DNA of 40,935 bases, taken from assembly GCA_014802045.1 (NCBI GenBank), contig JAAVDA010000006.1, positions 45,033 through 85,967 of the forward strand, written 5' to 3'. This DNA is from Bacteroides sp. (lineage in GTDB: Bacteria > Bacteroidota > Bacteroidia > Bacteroidales > Muribaculaceae). A program made the translations under genes and the position numbers. Positions 16,127-23,485 of this stretch are shown here, piece by piece. The notes beneath the pieces were generated by a model. It saw only the letters and a list, made by a program, of their open reading frames with translations, was not told where the DNA came from and ran no database searches. The stretch's first letter is position 1. Each line of letters opens with the position of its first letter.

Positions 16127-17908
16127 TTAATTATACCCGGGGTTCTGGGTGATGTTCTTGTTGAGGTCGATATCGTGCTGAGGCACGGGGAACACATAGT
16201 TGTGAGGACCATAAGAGAAGAACTGCTGAGTGATCTCCTGACCTTCGCCAACGTAAAGCTCTACGACACGACGCATAACGACCTTGGTCTCCTTATCGAG
16301 TGTGAGATCCTGATACCATGAGGGAGTCTCACCTTCCTTATAGGCAGGTACAGTTTCGCCGAATTCGGGACAAGCAACATTAGTAACCTTAAACTTCATA
16401 GAGTAGCGCGGGGTGTTGAGCACCTTTTCAGCAATATTCCAGCGACGGATATCCCACTGGCGGTGGTCGCCTTCAGCGAAGAACTCAATACGCCATTCGT
16501 TGCGGATACGCTGACGGAGGTCGTCCTGAGTAGCGCAATAGGTGGGCTTGGTAGCATCAGTGTTCTGAAGGGCGGGCATACCTACGCGGGCACGAACACG
16601 GTTGACCGCTGCGAAAGCTTCCTCAGAGAGTGGGCTAAGCTCGTTCATAGCCTCAGCATAGGTGAGGAGCACCTCGGTGAAGCGCATGTCGCAAGAAGCT
16701 GAACGGTGGCTCCAACCGGCGGTTTCGGGATATACATCGGGGTTAAGCCATTTGAGGGTATAGTAACCGGTGAGGGTCTGGTCACTGCAACCATAGGGGT
16801 AAAGACCGGTGTTGCCAGACGAGGTGAGAGGTTCTGTGTGAACTTCCACGCCATAGTATGTCTGGCCGGAGAAGAGCACGTTGGCTTCGAGACGGGGGTC
16901 ACGGTTTTCATTGGGCTTGAGGGGATTGTAGAGCTTGGATGTGGCGATGGGAGCACCCTCAACATCCTCGAAGCAGTCTACGAAATCCTGAGTGGGGTTA
17001 GTACCACCCCAACCGAGTTTCGGGAATGCAGAGAAACCGATATAGTAGACAGAACCGCTTACACCGGGGATACGGTGATATTCCATAAGACCCTCCTTAG
17101 AGTTGTCGACATTGAAATCCCAGAACATAGACGCATAGTCTGCGGGATCAAAATCGGCAGCTGTGCCGGTATAGTCACCTCCATAGAGGTCATACTTGCC
17201 TGAGTCAATAACGGCCTTAGCGTTATTAGCAGCAACCTGGTAGCCATCAGCAACATAGTGCTGACATTCGGGGTTAGCGAAATAGAGGGCGGCACGAGCC
17301 TTATATGCCTGAGCAATGACGCTGTTCACACGACCGGTGGCGGCATCAGCAGGAAGGAGTTTGATAGCATTGTCGAAGTCAGACATTACGTTGTCATAGA
17401 CAATCTTCCAGTCTGTGCGGGTGATGTCTTCCTGATCATCAAGGTTGAGAGGTTCAGTGAAGTAGGGGACGTCACCAAACTGCTTGATAAGCATAAAGTA
17501 GATATATGCACGGAAGAAGTATGCCTGACCAAGGACATTATTGCGTGTAGCCTCATCCATATCCTCTACCTCGTCGATATGAGCAAATACGAGGTTGGCA
17601 TAGCGGATGTAGGTGTATTCACCGCTCCAAGAGAAAGCGGTGGGCTCCCAAAGGCCTGAGCAGCGGGCATCAACAGCCCATTTGATGCCATAGGTGGAGT
17701 TGTCGGTGTATACATCTTCAGCTGCACTCCACATAGCATCGGGCATGTAGTTGTAGAGGATGGAAACACCCTGCTCGGCGTCCTGAACGGTCTGCCACAT
17801 GGTGGCTTCCGATTTCTGAGCGAGCGGTGCGGTGTCAAGATCCACGCAGGAGCTTGCACCAACAGCGAGCGCTACCGAAGCAAATATGCTGATATATTTA
17901 TTTTTCAT
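16127..17908 (-). CDS. SusD/RagB-family nutrient-binding outer membrane lipoprotein
   Basis: A 593-residue surface lipoprotein that closes over the partner TonB-dependent channel and captures the substrate. The signal and lipobox are at the N-terminus (VGASSCVDLD, Cys21). The helical TPR-rich core shows the family's RAEAYFFRAYIYF-like segment as GQAYFFRAYIYFMLIKQFGDVPY near residues 128-150. The family's C-terminal end is recognisable too: VLLTYAEAMNE, RVRARVGMP and RIRNEWRIEFFAEGDHRQWDIRRW, then LDLNKNITQNPGY-like DIDLNKNITQNPGYN. It is full-length, 14 bp downstream of susC. No carbohydrase, sulfatase or peptidase gene is adjacent, so the ligand cannot be inferred. Confidence 0.93.
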   Translation of the reverse strand: MKNKYISIFASVALAVGASSCVDLDTAPLAQKSEATMWQTVQDAEQGVSILYNYMPDAMWSAAEDVYTDNSTYGIKWAVDARCSGLWEPTAFSWSGEYTYIRYANLVFAHIDEVEDMDEATRNNVLGQAYFFRAYIYFMLIKQFGDVPYFTEPLNLDDQEDITRTDWKIVYDNVMSDFDNAIKLLPADAATGRVNSVIAQAYKARAALYFANPECQHYVADGYQVAANNAKAVIDSGKYDLYGGDYTGTAADFDPADYASMFWDFNVDNSKEGLMEYHRIPGVSGSVYYIGFSAFPKLGWGGTNPTQDFVDCFEDVEGAPIATSKLYNPLKPNENRDPRLEANVLFSGQTYYGVEVHTEPLTSSGNTGLYPYGCSDQTLTGYYTLKWLNPDVYPETAGWSHRSASCDMRFTEVLLTYAEAMNELSPLSEEAFAAVNRVRARVGMPALQNTDATKPTYCATQDDLRQRIRNEWRIEFFAEGDHRQWDIRRWNIAEKVLNTPRYSMKFKVTNVACPEFGETVPAYKEGETPSWYQDLTLDKETKVVMRRVVELYVGEGQEITQQFFSYGPHNYVFPVPQHDIDLNKNITQNPGYN

Positions 17909-17922
17909 TGTTGCGTAAGTGA

Positions 17923-20900
17923 TTAGAATGTTACCTTAAGACCGAGTGAGAATTTCTTCACGTTGGAGTAGTAAGCACCACGTCCCTGAGGAGCCTCGGG
18001 GTCAATGTTCTTCTTATAGAGACCTGAGATTGTGATGAGGTTCTCACCGTTGAAGTAAACACGCACCTTGTTGATACCTGCTTTCTGAGTGATAGCTGTG
18101 GGGATGGTATAGCCGAAAGTGAGGTTCTTAAGACGAACGTAGCTTGCGTCGTAGCACCAGAAAGAGTTGGTGACCTGAACGTCGGGCGAGCTCGAAGAGT
18201 TCTCATAGAGACGGGGATATGTTCCGTTGGGGTTTTCGGGTGACCAACGCTCGCGCTCCTGCCATTTGGTAGCGGTACCGCTGTTGTAGAATGCCTGAGA
18301 AGCTTCACCGCTCAGATAACGATTGAAGTCGAAAGCGCCCTGCCAGAGCATAGAGAAGTCGAAGTCGCGGAAGTTGACACCAACATTCACACCACCCATC
18401 CAAGAGGGGTTCATGTGACCGATAACGGCACGGTCGGCAGCGTCGACTACTCCGTCGGCACCTTCTACAACCTCACCATTTTCATAGTGAGCCCAGTCTT
18501 TGAAGCGGAGGTTACCGGGTTTTTCCTTACCTGTGCGGAGAGGACCGGCCTTAACCTCGGCCTCATCCTTGAAGATACCGTCGCATATATAGCCGTAGTA
18601 TGAACCGACTGCCTCACCTTCGAGGAACCATGTGAGTGTGTTAGCGGGATTTTCACCTTCAGTACCTGCAAGGTTGGTGATTTCGTTGTGGTTGTAACCT
18701 ACGTTGAGAGTTACGTTGTAGCTCCAGTCTTTGTTGATGCGGTTGTTGTGGCCGATTGTGATGTCAATACCCTTGTTCTCAACCGAACCGGCGTTCTGAG
18801 CGGGTGCGCTTACACCGAGCACAGAGAGAATGGGAAGGTTAAGAAGCATACCGGTGGTCTTACGCTTGTAAATAGATCCTTCGAATGTGAAGCGGTTGTT
18901 GAACATTGAAGTCTCAACGCCGAGCTCCCAGTTGGTGACGGTAGCCCATTTGAGGTTGTTGTTTACGAAGCTGCTCTCATAGAGGGCTGAATACTGGTTC
19001 TGACCGAGGAGCAGGGTGTAATATGAGTAGGTGGCTACAGCGGGATAGAGGTCATCGATTTCCTCATTACCTGTGCGACCCCAGCCGAGACGAAGCTTCA
19101 ACTGATTGAGCCAGTCGCGTGTGCCTTCCATGAAGCTCTCCTGAGAGATGCGCCAAGCGGCAGAAACTGCGGGGAAGTAACCCCAGCGATTTGCTTTCGG
19201 GAAGCGTGAAGAAGCGTCGGCACGAAGATTGGCTTCAAAGAGGTAGCGGGTGTCGTAGTCATACTGCACGCGACCAAACCAAGACTGACGGGTGAGGTCA
19301 TTACCGTTGTCACCATTCTGCCAGTTCTCCTTAGAAAGTGCATCGAATACCTGGTCGAGAGCGTTGTCACCTCCACCTTCGCGGGAAGCGGTGGTGTAGC
19401 GATACATATAGCGCTGAGACTCATAACCGGCGAGAAGACCAATATTGTGCTTTCCGGCGATTGTGGTGTTGTAGTTTGCAACAGCCTGATAGGTCATGCG
19501 GTCCCAGTTGTAGTAGTTGTGGTCTGCACGACGTGTACCGTTGTCACCGCCATTGTAGCTGCCACCATAGAGGAGCACCTTACGGAAACGATAGTAATCG
19601 CGGTAGTCGTGACGCCAAGAGAAGAGGGGACGGATGCTAAGACCCTTGATGGGGGTGATGTTGAGATAAACGTTGGTGAAGAGCTGATCGTCTTTAACCT
19701 TGTAGATACCTGTAGCGTTTTTCTCAGCCTCGGCAATAGGGTTCTGCATACCGCCAGGTGCCTGCAGCTCATCATTGCTATTGTAGGGTGAGAGGGTTGC
19801 GTTAAGACGGTTGGCATGCTGCATAATACCTGCTACGCCATTGTAGCCGTCCTTCTGGATGCCACGGTAGAATGAGGTCTGGAGACCGAGAGCAAGCCAG
19901 GGCTTGAGCTGTGAGTCGAGGTTTACACGGGCATTGTAGCGGTTGTAGTCATTCTGCGAGAGGATACCACCCTGGTAGAGATAGCCGAGAGAGGCCATGT
20001 AAGTGGTATTTGCAGAACCACCGTTGATCTGAACGGTATGAGAGGTCTCAGTGCCGTGGCTCTTGAAGGTTTCGCCATACCAGTCAGTACCGATAGGATC
20101 GAGAGTACCGTCAGCGTAGTCAGAGAGACGCTGGTCATAGATACCTACATCAGCATTGGGATTTCCGTTGAGGATGGCCTCACGCTTCATTGTGGTATAG
20201 CCGATTGCGGTAACGGGGTCAAGCTTCGCGGTAGGAGTAACGATGCTTACATTGCCGGAATATGTGATAGTGGCGGCAGTGTTGAGCTTACCCTTCTTAG
20301 TGGTGATAAGGATAACGCCGTTGGCAGCCTGCACACCGTAGATGGCGGCTGAAGCGGCATCCTTAAGCACGGAGATTGACTCTACGTCCTGAGGATCGAT
20401 GTTGTTCATCGAACCGGGGACACCGTCGACAATCACAAGGGGAGAAGCGGAGTTAATTGTGTTGTTACCACGGATAGTGATTGAACCGGTCTGACCGCCG
20501 GGGGCGCCGGAGGACTGAACGACAACAACACCGGGCATCTCACCGGCCATAGCTGCGGAGATAGAACCGACAGCACGGTCTTCGATAGCGGATGCGTTCA
20601 TTGTAGAAACGGCTCCGGTAACGTTAGCTTTTTTCTGGACACCGTAGCCGACGACTACCACTTCGTCGAGCACGTTGTCTTCTTCCTTAAGTGTGAAAGA
20701 GAGTGAACCACCGGTCCATTTCTTTTCGGCGCCGGTGTAGCCGATGGCAGTAACGCTGATGGTTGAGCCGGACTTAACTCCACTGAGGGAGAAGTTGCCG
20801 TCGATGTCGGTCATAGTGCCGACTGTGCCGCCAACCACCTTTACAGAAGCGCCGATAACGGGGTCGCCATTCTGGTCGATTACCGTACCAACGCACAGAC

Positions 20901-21006
20901 CCGTCTGCTGCGACGCGCCTGCAACTTGCTGAGCATTAGCTAAATACCCCCCCCCATTGATAAGGAGGCAGGCTGCAAACACTCCTGCTAAAATGCGTTT
21001 AGACAT
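17923..21006 (-). CDS. SusC/RagA-family TonB-dependent outer membrane receptor
   Basis: A 1027-residue outer-membrane importer. In order: signal peptide (residues 1-26, ending NAQQ); a carboxypeptidase-regulatory-like domain (about 38-112, GTVIDQNGDPVIGASVKVVG); TonB-box region with DEVVVVGYGVQKKANVTGAV; plug domain with IRGNNTINSASPLVIVDGVP and VLKDAASAAIYG; then the beta-barrel ending GLKVTF, the terminal-aromatic signature for outer-membrane insertion. Codons 18-20 of the signal peptide are GGG GGG GGG (20947-20955), a nine-G tract able to slip out of frame. susD follows after 14 bp. A -7 element lies about 70 bp upstream and a small hairpin sits in the leader. Confidence 0.95.
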   Translation of the reverse strand: MSKRILAGVFAACLLINGGGYLANAQQVAGASQQTGLCVGTVIDQNGDPVIGASVKVVGGTVGTMTDIDGNFSLSGVKSGSTISVTAIGYTGAEKKWTGGSLSFTLKEEDNVLDEVVVVGYGVQKKANVTGAVSTMNASAIEDRAVGSISAAMAGEMPGVVVVQSSGAPGGQTGSITIRGNNTINSASPLVIVDGVPGSMNNIDPQDVESISVLKDAASAAIYGVQAANGVILITTKKGKLNTAATITYSGNVSIVTPTAKLDPVTAIGYTTMKREAILNGNPNADVGIYDQRLSDYADGTLDPIGTDWYGETFKSHGTETSHTVQINGGSANTTYMASLGYLYQGGILSQNDYNRYNARVNLDSQLKPWLALGLQTSFYRGIQKDGYNGVAGIMQHANRLNATLSPYNSNDELQAPGGMQNPIAEAEKNATGIYKVKDDQLFTNVYLNITPIKGLSIRPLFSWRHDYRDYYRFRKVLLYGGSYNGGDNGTRRADHNYYNWDRMTYQAVANYNTTIAGKHNIGLLAGYESQRYMYRYTTASREGGGDNALDQVFDALSKENWQNGDNGNDLTRQSWFGRVQYDYDTRYLFEANLRADASSRFPKANRWGYFPAVSAAWRISQESFMEGTRDWLNQLKLRLGWGRTGNEEIDDLYPAVATYSYYTLLLGQNQYSALYESSFVNNNLKWATVTNWELGVETSMFNNRFTFEGSIYKRKTTGMLLNLPILSVLGVSAPAQNAGSVENKGIDITIGHNNRINKDWSYNVTLNVGYNHNEITNLAGTEGENPANTLTWFLEGEAVGSYYGYICDGIFKDEAEVKAGPLRTGKEKPGNLRFKDWAHYENGEVVEGADGVVDAADRAVIGHMNPSWMGGVNVGVNFRDFDFSMLWQGAFDFNRYLSGEASQAFYNSGTATKWQERERWSPENPNGTYPRLYENSSSSPDVQVTNSFWCYDASYVRLKNLTFGYTIPTAITQKAGINKVRVYFNGENLITISGLYKKNIDPEAPQGRGAYYSNVKKFSLGLKVTF

Positions 21007-21157: not shown

Positions 21158-21219
21158 AGCGGCGGAGCCGTGTATTAGCGAGTAACCCCGTACGACACGC
21201 CGGAGGCGGGAGTGCGGGG
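21158..21219 (+). repeat. REP-like unit, left arm of a head-to-head pair
   Basis: Begins agcggcggagccgtg, contains tagcgagtaaccccgtacga and ends agtgcgggg. Its reverse complement lies at 21317-21380 with roughly 80% identity by eye. Internally the unit folds, accccgtac against the GC-rich end gtgcgggg. Confidence 0.75.
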
Positions 21220-21316
21220 ATGGAGGGGGAGGGAAGAACGGGAGCTACGGAGTTGCGACTTGAATGCCTGGGCTATATCGCTCCTCCGGAGCTCTGAGAA
21301 GTGGGGCGGGCTCTTC

Positions 21317-21380
21317 CCCCCGCACTCGTGCCTGCGGCACTTCGTACGGGGTTACTCGCTAAAGCGCGGCTCTCGCCGCT
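21317..21380 (-). repeat. REP-like unit, right arm of a head-to-head pair
   Basis: The inverted counterpart of 21158-21219: minus-strand reading gives agcggcgagagccgcg, tagcgagtaaccccgtacga and then the agtgcgggg end. The 19 bases around tagcgagtaaccccgtacg are identical in both arms. About 97 bases separate the arms, and no gene lies between them. Confidence 0.75.
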
Positions 21381-21404
21381 TTTATGGGGTAGGATGAGGG
21401 GGGC

Positions 21405-21437
21405 TGGAGGGGGACACCCGCGGCAGCGGGTGGCGGA
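21405..21437 (+). repeat. Outer direct repeat of the transposase locus, left copy
   Basis: An exact 33-bp repeat of 22152-22184 in the same orientation. It contains a hairpin with arms cacccgc and gcgggtg around ggca, the same ACCCGC/GCGGGT core as the hairpins directly beside the transposase gene. Confidence 0.85.
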
Positions 21438-21440
21438 GAT

Positions 21441-21475
21441 AATAGCCTATGGTTGAGCGGGAGCGAAACCATAGG
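21441..21475 (+). repeat. Inner inverted repeat of the transposase locus, left copy
   Basis: A 35-bp sequence beginning aatagcctatggttgagcg. Its inverted copy at 22077-22111 differs at one base. Each copy is itself a hairpin with arms cctatggtt and aaccatagg. Confidence 0.88.
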
Positions 21476-21487
21476 GTACAAGGTCAT

Positions 21488-21520
21488 AAAAAAAAGACGC
21501 ACCCGCAGCAGCGTGGTGCG
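21488..21520 (-). terminator. Hairpin and T-run downstream of the transposase gene
   Basis: On the minus strand a 9-bp stem (cgcacc-cgc with one bulged A, loop tgct, gcg-ggtgcg) is followed by t-c and eight T. It lies 12 bp after the transposase stop and could terminate its transcript. The stem sequence is nearly the same as the hairpin 5' of the gene at 22035-22056. Confidence 0.6.
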
Positions 21521-21532
21521 AGTATGAGGAGC

Positions 21533-21994
21533 CTACTGGGGATCCTCCGGGAGGTCATATTTCGATGTTGTGAGTCCGAGTGAACGTAACCATCCCTCGT
21601 ATTCCTCCCTGAAGGTTTTCACACGATGGTGCTCCCATTGGTTGTCAATATATGCTTTCAAGCGCGGCAGCCCAGATGGCGAACAGGTGATGCGGGCTCC
21701 TCCTCTCTGCCATCCGAAGCGTCCGAGAGTCCATCGTTTCTCATTGAGCCAACGTGAGGATTCCGTTTTTAGCCGCCGGACAATTTCAGTATCGGCTATC
21801 ATCCCACGGGTGCTGTAAAGCACATGCACATGATCTCTGTAACCATTGATTTTCAGTGGGCGCACTCCATCCATATCATTTAGAATCTTCCCCATCATCG
21901 CGTAGAAATCAGGAGCCCACCGGGAATCAATCATACCCAACCGGTATTTTACGGCAAATACCGCCATCACATATTGCTGAGTTATGGAGTTCAT
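21533..21994 (-). CDS. HUH/Y1 transposase, IS200-like, RAYT-type
   Basis: A 153-residue single-strand transposase of the TnpA_REP/IS200 class. The HUH metal-binding motif is DHVHVL (His55, His57). The catalytic tyrosine lies in LKAYIDNQWEHH (Tyr115, with Gln119). The connecting FGWQRGGARITCSPSG resembles the family's FAWQxGYGAF-xxS segment, and the end matches F-x-E-E-Y. ATG at 21994 was chosen: the frame is open to 22099, but those extra 35 codons run through a REP hairpin. Enzymes of this type nick single-stranded DNA at hairpins. Nested inverted and direct repeats surround the gene, as for REP-associated transposases. All visible catalytic residues are intact. No accessory TnpB is present. 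Confidence 0.87.
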   Translation of the reverse strand: MNSITQQYVMAVFAVKYRLGMIDSRWAPDFYAMMGKILNDMDGVRPLKINGYRDHVHVLYSTRGMIADTEIVRRLKTESSRWLNEKRWTLGRFGWQRGGARITCSPSGLPRLKAYIDNQWEHHRVKTFREEYEGWLRSLGLTTSKYDLPEDPQ

Positions 21995-22034
21995 GCGGCG
22001 AAGATAGTGATAATCATTCAATTTACAAAATCCC

Positions 22035-22056
22035 CGCACCCGCGCCTGCGGGTGCG
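22035..22056. repeat. Perfect hairpin 5' of the transposase gene
   Basis: Arms cgcacccgc and gcgggtgcg are exact 9-bp complements around a four-base loop. It lies about 40 bp upstream of the transposase start, mirroring the hairpin just after its stop. Confidence 0.7.
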
Positions 22057-22076
22057 TTATTATATTTCGATTTAAT

Positions 22077-22111
22077 CCTATGGTTTCGCTCACGCTCAAC
22101 CATAGGCTATT
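22077..22111 (-). repeat. Inner inverted repeat of the transposase locus, right copy
   Basis: The reverse complement matches 21441-21475 at 34 of 35 bases. Together the copies bracket the transposase gene and its two flanking hairpins, a span of 671 bp. Confidence 0.88.
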
Positions 22112-22117
22112 GTACGT

Positions 22118-22284
22118 TCACCGGCGTTGCCGGTGACGCAAGAAGGGGGGATGGAGGGGGACACCCGCGGCAGCGGGTGGCGGATGTGTCGGAGATGGGG
22201 TTTCACAAATTTAGCGCCTACGGCGCCCTTACCCCGGGCTACAAAAAGCCATGCCGCCACGCGGCATCAACGCGCCGAGGGCGC
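22118..22284. repeat. Cluster of short GC hairpins
   Basis: Five hairpins stand in series: tcaccggc/gccggtga (22118-22136), cacccgc/gcgggtg inside the direct repeat, gcgcc/ggcgc (22214-22226), atgccgc/gcggcat (22251-22267) and gcgcc/ggcgc (22272-22284). Each has a loop of three to four bases. No gene is visible in this 315-base gap. Confidence 0.65.
22152..22184 (+). repeat. Outer direct repeat of the transposase locus, right copy
   Basis: Identical over 33 bp to 21405-21437. The start-to-start distance is 747 bp. A few flanking bases (ggg-tgg) also agree. Confidence 0.85.
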
Positions 22285-22309
22285 TTGAAGAGGAATCAGA
22301 GCGGGAGAA

Positions 22310-23485
22310 TCAGTAGGCGGGGTAGGGGGCGGGAGTGGTGAGGGGATACATGGCGATGCATTCCATTTCGACGAGCCAGCCGGGGCGGCACACGGGCGCG
22401 AGAACGGCTATGGTAGGGACTCCGGGATAGCGTTCGGCTATCATGTCGCGGGCTATGGGGGCATCGGCGAGGTCGCGGACGTAGAGCACGATGTGCATTA
22501 TATCGGTGGGGCGGGCGGCTCCCTGCGCAAGCAGGATGTCGACATTGTCGGCCATACGTGTCATCTGGGCTCGGATTAGACCCGGGGCGTGAATCTGCCC
22601 TTGAGCATCGATGCTGGCGGTGCCGGAGACGATGATCTGACGCCGGTCGCCATAGGTGACGGCGGTGGCGCGCTCGAAGGCTACGCCATAGGAGATGGTG
22701 TCGTTGAGGTGGGAGGGGGCGCGGAGATAGGCTATCTGGTCGGGGTCTATGCCGAGCACGGAGTAGGCTTCGAATGAGAGGGGGCTGTATTGGGTGAGGC
22801 CTTGGGCGCCGATGCCGGTGGAGGCTATGAAGTGGGTGGAGGGGGTGAGACCGATGCGGGCGAAGTAGTGGTTGCGGGCGCTGACGAGGCCTGAATAGGT
22901 GGCGTCGATGTCGCGGACGAAGAACCAGGTGCGGAGGGTGGTGTCTTTAATTGGGGAGTGAGAATTGAGAATTGAGAGTTGAGGAGTGAGAATTGAAGAG
23001 AGGGTGGTGTCGAGGTCGGTGAGGAGTTGGGTGGTGGCGGAGGAGGAGGTGCCCGACTCAGGGGCGCGGGTGGTGAGCCAGCAGTCGGTATAGTGGCCGC
23101 GGCTGACTGTGATGATGCCTGAGTCGCTGCTGACATTCGGGGTCTCTATGAGGATGACGAGGAGCGCAAGCCTCTCCCCTCCGAGAGGAGGCTGACCGGC
23201 TACGGAAAATGCGGGAAACGGGGCGGCTGCGCGGAGCTCGGGCAGCCGGTTGACGGGGTCGGAGATGTAGAACCGCGAATAGGCTATCTCCATGCCGGGA
23301 TGGGCAGCTCGCAATTCGGCGAGGGCACCGGTGATGCCATCGAGCTGCCCGAGGAAATGGCGCGAGGCTGCGGGAACAATCACCGCATGGAGCTCGCGGC
23401 GTCCGGGGCCGGGATAGAGCGCGGCGGTGACTTCGGCAGTTTCGCCGGAGGCCGACGACATGAATGCGTGGAATCTCTGAATCAT
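22310..23485 (-). CDS. Rid (YjgF)-family protein with chorismatase-like layout
   Basis: A 391-residue protein. The C-terminal 125 residues are a recognisable Rid/YjgF domain: QIIVSGTASIDAQGQI, a predicted MADNVDILLAQGA helix, and the closing VCRPGWLVEMECIA with the conserved Arg. The N-terminal half looks like a second, degenerate Rid-like fold. The middle (TWFFVRDIDATYSGLVSARN, ASTGIGAQ) resembles FkbO/Hyg5/XanB2-type chorismatases, which combine two such folds. The call is by resemblance, so a deaminase-like or chorismate-cleaving role is possible but unproven. A low-complexity insert (about residues 162-178) is encoded by a short AATTGAG repeat. It starts 3 bp after the M28 peptidase stop, so the two form an operon. 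Confidence 0.62.
   Translation of the reverse strand: MIQRFHAFMSSASGETAEVTAALYPGPGRRELHAVIVPAASRHFLGQLDGITGALAELRAAHPGMEIAYSRFYISDPVNRLPELRAAAPFPAFSVAGQPPLGGERLALLVILIETPNVSSDSGIITVSRGHYTDCWLTTRAPESGTSSSATTQLLTDLDTTLSSILTPQLSILNSHSPIKDTTLRTWFFVRDIDATYSGLVSARNHYFARIGLTPSTHFIASTGIGAQGLTQYSPLSFEAYSVLGIDPDQIAYLRAPSHLNDTISYGVAFERATAVTYGDRRQIIVSGTASIDAQGQIHAPGLIRAQMTRMADNVDILLAQGAARPTDIMHIVLYVRDLADAPIARDMIAERYPGVPTIAVLAPVCRPGWLVEMECIAMYPLTTPAPYPAY
22951..23002. repeat. AATTGAG-type short tandem repeat inside a coding region
   Basis: Degenerate repeats of gaattgaga / gagttgagg units run for about 52 bp. On the minus strand they encode the SILTPQLSILNSHSP insert of the Rid-like protein, in frame. 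Confidence 0.6.

Follow-up and report, generated by a model that had tools for sequence, protein, structure and literature searches.

Around a small Y1/HUH transposase gene in a Muribaculaceae genome stand several hairpins, an inverted repeat and a direct repeat, and the question that this locus raises is which of these repeats belong to the transposase and what kind of element they form with it. The locus lies in a stretch of 40,935 nucleotides, hereafter the window, of a Bacteroides sp. assembly (GCA_014802045.1; contig JAAVDA010000006.1, here C6, positions 45033-85967) that measures 2.22 Mb and is 75.7% complete. Genomes, contigs and loci are cited below by our handles (G, C and L), the genome of the window being G000. 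A first-pass annotation of the window had described a unit of about 780 bp around a gene resembling a REP-associated tyrosine transposase (RAYT; REP, repetitive extragenic palindrome). With a probability of about 0.8 we read the repeats and the gene, from their sequences, as a system like the REPtrons and REPINs (REP doublets) known best from Proteobacteria, in which a transposase (TnpA) of subclass 1.2 would operate between inverted REPs set in arms of three hairpins, with gene-less derivatives. REP/RAYT pairs are a well-known bacterial case of a transposase that persists alongside a population of short sequences, and a second lineage of proteins whose REPs are built alike would allow the features that any such pair needs to be separated from those owed to history.

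The transposase and its REP hairpins

The gene (21533-21994, minus strand, ATG start) encodes a protein of 153 amino acids with the motifs DHVH, WQ and YIDNQWEHH, the last being of the form Y---Q--HH. All three match the signature of subclass 1.2, which the available part of a survey of Y1 transposases (Quentin et al. 2018, PMC6006769) characterises by DH[IV]H, WQ and Y---Q--HH, a length of about 148-150 amino acids, occurrence in Bacteroidetes and low copy number. The Y motif that the same text gives for class 2, Y---NP, is not present. The class-2 profile REP_Tyr_transpos (NF047646) finds nothing in the own genome at E <= 0.001 and is not among the NCBIfam matches of the protein, which reaches 41.4 bits with transpos_IS200, below the cut-off of 55. 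Its predicted fold, compared by aligning Foldseek matches, appears to be nearer to IS200 transposases than to TnpAREP. Judged by its sequence, the protein is a TnpAY1 of subclass 1.2, on the IS200 side, and not a strict class-2 RAYT. What survives of the RAYT-like description is the layout, which resembles that of REP transposases, together with the palindromes away from the gene; the protein class does not. The own genome holds six Y1 genes, the nearest to the window gene being 86% identical and the one on C21 36%, and the several near-identical copies per genome that mark IS200/IS605 elements were not found in the 75.7% of it that is assembled.

The repeats named in the first-pass annotation are present around the gene and in excess of chance. 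The inverted repeat of 35 nt (21441-21475 and 22077-22111, 34/35 positions or 97% complementary) is an imperfect hairpin, with an ATAG foot, a 9-bp stem, an internal 2x2 mismatch of GA against GA and a short inner stem-loop. Its left copy, the left REP or B hairpin, occupies 21442-21475 on the plus strand and has an inner stem of 2 bp; the right REP is inverted (22077-22110, minus strand), and in both the ATAG foot points outward from the gene. The GA/GA loop would presumably give tandem sheared G.A pairs. Folding yields -9.2 kcal/mol for the footed strand, as good as which none of 200 shuffles was, versus -7.9 kcal/mol for the other strand, and the window has two copies of the 35-mer's inner core where 0.07 are expected.

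This anatomy is supported by the substitution pattern among 17 copies from seven genomes, in which 11 of 13 pairs are altered on both sides and 93.6% of the cells are paired; since the copies were selected by their fit to the anatomy, the paired percentage is biased upward, the compensating changes less so. The covariation score amounts to 0.382, compared with 0.108 in shuffles (0/500 as high) and at most 0.10 when slid. When a first set of loci was scanned for hairpins with just four features, namely an RTAG foot, an outer and an inner stem, and an unpaired 2x2 loop between the two stems, the finder returned only elements beside genes of the window clade or the copy on C7, all of them GA/GA. 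A wider finder, which accepted only loops of the GA/GA and AA/GC kinds, was applied to 16 sources; it yielded extra elements beside the C12 gene and in G013, G014 and G017, as well as two weak footless matches in the window.

The foot itself can be judged from a second model that does not contain it. This footless model finds the two REPs in the window and nothing further up to E = 1. Applied to five genomes outside the training of both models it gave 66 matches, from which 51 distinct copies could be read in the loci (12 of 64 rows were excluded, 11 as the same places in overlapping loci and one as cut by a contig end; one more was identical). A/G/T-TAG occupies the 5' foot in 38 of these 51 REPs and the opposite end in one, while in a further four the foot is shifted by one (TAGC); copies in G102 have ATAA, TAAC or TGAC at this position. 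GA/GA loops are found in 43 copies, AA/GC loops in seven and a near-AA/GC loop with a mismatched inner stem in one, all eight non-GA/GA copies coming from G010. Class-2 genes are characterised by two flanking inverted REPs whose foot has the form GT[AG]G; here the inverted REPs are present, and their foot reads ATAG in the own genome and GTAG in sister species, e.g., at L055 and L020.

Dispersal of REPs and their association with subclass 1.2 genes

The own genome contains nine REPs at E <= 2.5e-6, and no weaker candidate appears up to E = 1. Of the nine, two lie in the window and two by the paralogue on C8 (86%), and a fifth is about 280 bp from the Y1 gene of C12, which places five within 1 kb of such a gene. 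The remaining four (on C7, C17, C24 and C25) have no Y1 gene nearby. The solo REPs are composites of outer hairpin, REP and inner hairpin between long open reading frames (ORFs), an extragenic placement judged for three solos by long ORFs alone. It had been suggested that both the 33-bp direct and the 35-bp inverted repeat be sought elsewhere in the genome: the 35-mer recurs, whereas for the 33-bp repeat a 26-mer, with up to 3 mismatches allowed, was matched nowhere else in the own genome. Short imperfect palindromes with a tetranucleotide foot, repeated outside genes, answer to the description of REP elements, and there are nine of them here and at least 32 in G047. Altogether 21 of 198 genomes, the own included, contain REPs, with at least 168 copies (at least 19 in G102, at least 15 in G010, at least six in G017 and at least four in G013); up to 34 candidates per genome were scored, which makes the counts per genome lower bounds. 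In viral contigs there was no relative of the protein and no exact copy of the REP core.

The REPs follow the gene across genomes. Homologues of the protein are present in 102 of the 198 genomes searched, and REPs occur in 18 of these 102 versus 3 of the 96 genomes without a homologue (p = 0.0007); within the family the figures are 17 of 59 versus 3 of 60 (p = 0.0004), both tests ignoring kinship. All 13 genomes with two or more REP copies hold a homologue. Among 150 listed REPs (out of at least 168), 27 have a Y1 gene no more than 1 kb away, compared with 0.46 expected; the five genomes that served to train the model contribute 21 of 53, and eleven untrained ones contribute 6 of 97 against an expectation of 0.24.

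In a tree of 76 proteins, 18 genes have a REP nearby and the label changes 7 times, versus 16.3 times in shuffles. All nine members of the window clade (support 100/97) are REP-positive, as are six in a second, weakly supported group of nine from Muribaculaceae; scattered positives are L008, L063 and L068, the last being an Akkermansiaceae gene bracketed by two GCAG-footed GA/GA hairpins. The weak REP matches of L113, L116, L119 and L044 (E 0.02 to 0.1) were scored as negative. L068 (E = 0.047 for each of its two REPs) was scored as positive because these REPs bracket the gene symmetrically, and L109 was positive by the structure finder. Excluded from the tree were L122, L133 (the genes of L023, L022), L128 (that of L044), L125, L134 (class-2 motif), L077 (archaeal, short) and L076 (no protein found), and the loci L054, L057, L058, L060 and L061 were removed as duplicates of L020, L021, L023, L022 and L024, respectively, a judgement made by the lengths of the contigs and the positions of the matches.

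REPs bracket subclass 1.2 genes in several species, and the stem sequences vary from gene to gene. The window protein and its relatives agree with the subclass as surveyed in motifs, in a length of about 150 amino acids, in their occurrence in Bacteroidetes and in low copy number. The available part of that survey (PMC6006769), the sole one found for the subclass, however describes subclass 1.2 as devoid of REPs, which the REPs near 18 of the 76 genes contradict, and as generally devoid of typical IS200 terminal structures. In the open-licence literature (general, Bacteroidetes, Muribaculaceae and Verrucomicrobia) we found no published REP association for subclass 1.2, and in the available parts of the experimental work found on REPs and their transposases the proteins belong to class 2 throughout.

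Units, arrays and gene-less derivatives

The REPs are accompanied by further hairpins. At a distance of up to 50 nt, a hairpin with a stem of at least 6 bp is present outside the foot in 26 of 40 REPs and inside in 19 of 40; among distant windows 17 of 186 have one, and among shuffled windows 3-4%. The first-pass annotation had seen two hairpin families around the gene, and the element in the window is better read as two arms of three hairpins each (outer C, REP, inner A), one on either side. The inner A hairpins lie at the 3' end of the gene (21498-21520, minus strand; 9 pairs and one bulged A as read from the sequence, absent from the output of the consensus scan) and upstream of its start (22035-22056, plus strand; a stem of 9 perfect pairs). 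The outer C hairpins, both on the plus strand, are found at 21415-21432 in the left arm, within the left copy of the direct repeat, and at 22118-22136 in the right arm; the 17-mer core of the latter is not rare, as 15 of 100 shuffles contain one. The core shared by hairpins and direct repeats was confirmed, ACCCGC-N4-GCGGGT occurring three times in the window versus 0.06 expected. Measured from outer hairpin to outer hairpin, the unit proper is about 21415-22136, and the right-hand direct repeat is outside it.

Comparison of units points to the same boundaries. Two copies in G105 (L127 585-1284 and L117 1294-1998) are 86.9% alike, and the units of L055 and of L050 in G047, from two species, are 75.7% alike; in both pairs the homology ends in, or a few bases from, the outer hairpins, and the neighbouring ORFs of the L055 and G047 units have no detectable resemblance. 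These sequence comparisons support the view that whole units were duplicated or moved. Where REPs stand on both sides of a gene (n = 9) the nearest pair is inverted, with the feet outward in eight cases and inward in G017, in which an entire 207-bp doublet is found on both sides of the gene.

Gene-less inverted doublets, which answer to the description of REPINs, occur in G009, G010, G017, G068 and G105. Dispersed doublets of about 300 bp are 95.6% alike and have differing flanks. Among 31 close REP pairs, with the gene-side pairs counted in, the feet are outward in 19, inward in seven and in the same direction in five. The doublet of G068 occupies many sites in that genome and, among the matches listed, none in 13 other genomes of its genus. 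Also in G068, L112 (1255-2688) carries a full unit and, next to it, a second copy that has an internal deletion and is bracketed by REPs of its own; this second copy looks like a step from a REPtron toward a gene-less doublet.

The direct repeat is 98% identical across 41 nt (21397-21437 and 22144-22184) and exact over 33 nt (21405-21437 and 22152-22184, both on the plus strand), its right copy standing past the right outer hairpin. It had been taken as part of the unit of about 780 bp, which it probably is not. Flanking direct repeats beyond the maximum in shuffles were found at five of 14 units (33 bp in the window, 29 bp in L173, 14 bp in L171, 13 bp in L112 and 10 bp, marginal against 9, in L055) and at none of the other nine, and we reject target-site duplication as a general feature on this ground. 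The short ones of L171, L112 and L055 are in our judgement chance matches in repeat-rich flanks. The unit most similar to that of the window, L173, forms an array: its left outer hairpin is found a second time past the right one, in the layout seen in the window. The simplest reading of these sequences would be that units stand in head-to-tail arrays; the 33-bp repeat would then be outside the mobile unit, its right copy probably being the first hairpin of a next array unit that has been lost.

A clean empty site, proposed at the outset as a check on the unit, was found neither among the window neighbours in the genus, nor in G013, nor at the REPIN locus of G068. The unit is flanked on one side by a gene with TonB-receptor plug and CarbopepD_reg_2 domains (labelled SusC-like) and on the other by a Ribonuc_L-PSP gene. 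The latter has counterparts of no more than 50% identity in 9 of the 33 further genomes of the genus and is therefore unusable as a comparator. In G013 the orthologue of the TonB-receptor gene (about 74%) has no unit upstream, the other neighbour differs, and the unit of G013 lies past the other end of the gene pair, which is one-sided evidence for an empty site. At the G068 REPIN locus the right-hand neighbour gene is matched in 13 of 13 genomes of the same genus and the repeat in none, among the matches listed. As a separate observation, G013 (L052/L238) keeps the gene pair of window positions 16130-21006 with 76% and 58% protein identity, the second gene being one that we take to be SusD-like; it has its own subclass 1.2 gene and REP array past one end of the pair, and the unit of the window stands before the other end.

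Proposed mechanism, known systems and alternative readings

The anatomy, covariation, dispersal and co-occurrence of the REPs and the unit boundaries in the compared pairs are established as results at the level of sequence; REP binding and cleavage, a guiding role of the foot and present-day mobility we infer. According to the available parts of the work on E. coli TnpAREP, that protein requires a GTAG foot and an unpaired bulge, uses one strand only and cleaves at CT, and its foot corresponds to the guide tetranucleotide of IS200. If the subclass 1.2 protein behaves in the same way, it should recognise the mismatch and, of the two strands, the one with RTAG. Its substrate would be the single-stranded REP hairpin formed by the strand that has RTAG as its 5' foot; this foot would serve as the guide that selects the cleavage site, and the GA/GA (or AA/GC) mismatch would mark the hairpin. 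The tyrosine would cut and rejoin single strands, probably at replication forks, and the entire unit could in this way be copied or moved. Gene-less derivatives, i.e., single arms here and inverted doublets in relatives, would spread in trans as REPINs presumably are by class-2 RAYTs.

A close likeness is to the REPtrons of E. coli and other enterobacteria (class 2, subclass 2.2 TnpAREP, with bacterial interspersed mosaic elements), which share the inverted imperfect hairpins flanking the gene, the 5' RTAG/GTAG foot, the 2x2 stem mismatch, the inner stem-loop, the arrays and the dispersed copies. In G017 and G010, REPs also agree with enterobacterial ones in the AA/GC loop and in the TAAGCGnAGCGC core. 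Unlike in E. coli, the protein is of the IS200 branch (Y---Q--HH), the loop mostly GA/GA and the foot in the own genome ATAG, and the arms contain the extra C and A hairpins; copy numbers are not comparable, as the counts here are lower bounds. In G010 (78% complete; L173, L174, L083 and L104), REPs such as GTAGCCTCGGGGTAAGCGTAGCGCACCCCGAGG share a core with a class-2 REP of Enterobacter, and no class-2 RAYT match was found there; the closeness of the G010 and G017 cores to the Enterobacter REP may be due either to convergence or to shared descent. The gene-less, dispersed inverted doublets resemble the non-autonomous REPINs of Pseudomonas, the partners of class-2 RAYTs, from which they differ in their size of about 200-300 bp, their extra hairpins and their subclass 1.2 partner; no doublets were seen in the own genome. 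TIRtrons (elements with terminal inverted repeats, TIRs, and a TIR-associated tyrosine transposase, TIRYT) likewise have a Y1 gene inside longer inverted repeats, some of them repeated elsewhere; in the available part of their description (Di Nocera et al. 2013, PMC3733652) the TIRs are, bar two cases, unrelated to GTAG REPs, whereas the inverted repeat here is a footed REP.

Going further, we lean slightly towards regarding subclass 1.2 TnpAs as a second REP-propagating lineage, on the IS200 side, that occurs in Bacteroidales and, in one case or more, in Verrucomicrobiota (Akkermansiaceae). It would use a REP design like that of E. coli, composed of an RTAG/GYAG foot, a 2x2 mismatch, mostly the tandem G.A one, and an inner stem, by convergence or through a recognition of REPs that predates the split. 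This would offer a hypothesis of function for genes with homologues in 102 of the 198 genomes, and natural protein/REP pairs with co-varying stems for comparing specificity.

Several observations weigh against a REPtron- and REPIN-like system run by the subclass 1.2 protein. No REP of this type is found at 58 of the 76 tree genes, and the link is therefore not a property of the whole subclass. In three REP-rich genomes, G009, G010 and G056, none of the listed REPs comes within 1 kb of any Y1 gene; the partner of these REPs may have been lost, be missing from the assembly or be another protein. The window foot is ATAG and not GTAG as in the sister species, and E. coli TnpAREP accepts no change of foot. 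Boundaries are not clean in the own genome, where the homology between C6 and C8 runs from inside the downstream REP to the start of the gene and the C8 copy is without its upstream arm, and the solo REPs there are single arms rather than doublets. Matches to REP_Tyr_transpos below the cut-off occur away from subclass 1.2 genes in G009, G054, G056, G068, G095, G105, G109 and G131, and an unseen class-2 RAYT is possible in the own genome because its assembly is 75.7% complete.

Among the alternatives, the one to be taken most seriously, as a possible if less probable account, is an ordinary IS200-branch insertion sequence whose ends are palindromic. The solo REPs would be its decayed ends or miniature inverted-repeat transposable elements, and the single-strand chemistry would be the same, without any special relation to REPs, an account that partly overlaps with the one we favour. 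The first-pass annotation had named a grouping with ordinary IS200 elements with standard ends as an objection to its reading: the protein does group with the IS200 side, yet standard IS200 ends are missing. In IS200/IS605 elements the left and right subterminal hairpins differ, whereas here the hairpins are symmetric, inverted and share one foot. The own genome has two close copies of the gene versus nine REPs, and G047 one versus at least 32; single-arm copies exist, and the profile score stays under the IS200 cut-off. The symmetric REPs, the gene-less dispersed copies and this score also set the system apart from the TnpA of IS608 and ISDra2 (IS200/IS605, subclass 1.1).

We consider it unlikely that the REPs have as their partner a class-2 RAYT encoded at another locus of the genome, the subclass 1.2 gene being a passenger beside them. 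The enterobacterial character of the G017 and G010 REPs and the sub-threshold class-2-like matches in eight REP-bearing genomes would fit such a relation, but no class-2 match at E <= 0.001 was found in the own genome, G010, G013, G017, G102, G103 or G104, and subclass 1.2 genes are bracketed by REPs in several species with stems that differ by gene.

A slightly poorer prospect still is that the palindromes are mainly devices at the level of RNA or of the chromosome, such as terminators or mRNA ends, their closeness to the gene being secondary. The A hairpin that lies 3' of the gene (21498-21520), read along the minus strand, is indeed followed by TC and eight T, as reported for its T8 tail, and in this copy it is a possible terminator; the solo REPs of the own genome, moreover, sit between long ORFs. 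A one-ended foot (38 versus 1 of 51) and an internal mismatch are, however, not expected of terminators, no such T-run is seen in L055, and no Rfam family attains its cut-off over 21300-22400, where the single match (SgrS, 17.3 bits versus a cut-off of 37) is taken as chance. A strict class-2 RAYT of Bacteroidales with its own REPs, as the REPtron-like anatomy might suggest, is highly improbable in view of YIDNQWEHH in place of Y---NP, the missing REP_Tyr_transpos match in the own genome, a profile nearest to IS200 transposases and a predicted fold that also appears nearest to them.

Palindromes of other types are found in the same genome. Some that are not of the RTAG/GA type, such as CCCCACGCTGCAAGCGTGGGG and CCCCGGGCTTTAGCCCGGGG, lie around the own subclass 1.2 genes on C8, C12 and C21 (L005, L006 and L007). 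Between the TonB-receptor gene and the unit, at 21170-21365, stands a second inverted pair of imperfect hairpins, with the 16-mer GAGTAACCCCGTACGA at 21180 on the plus and at 21342 on the minus strand, and this pair may be a doublet of another REP family.
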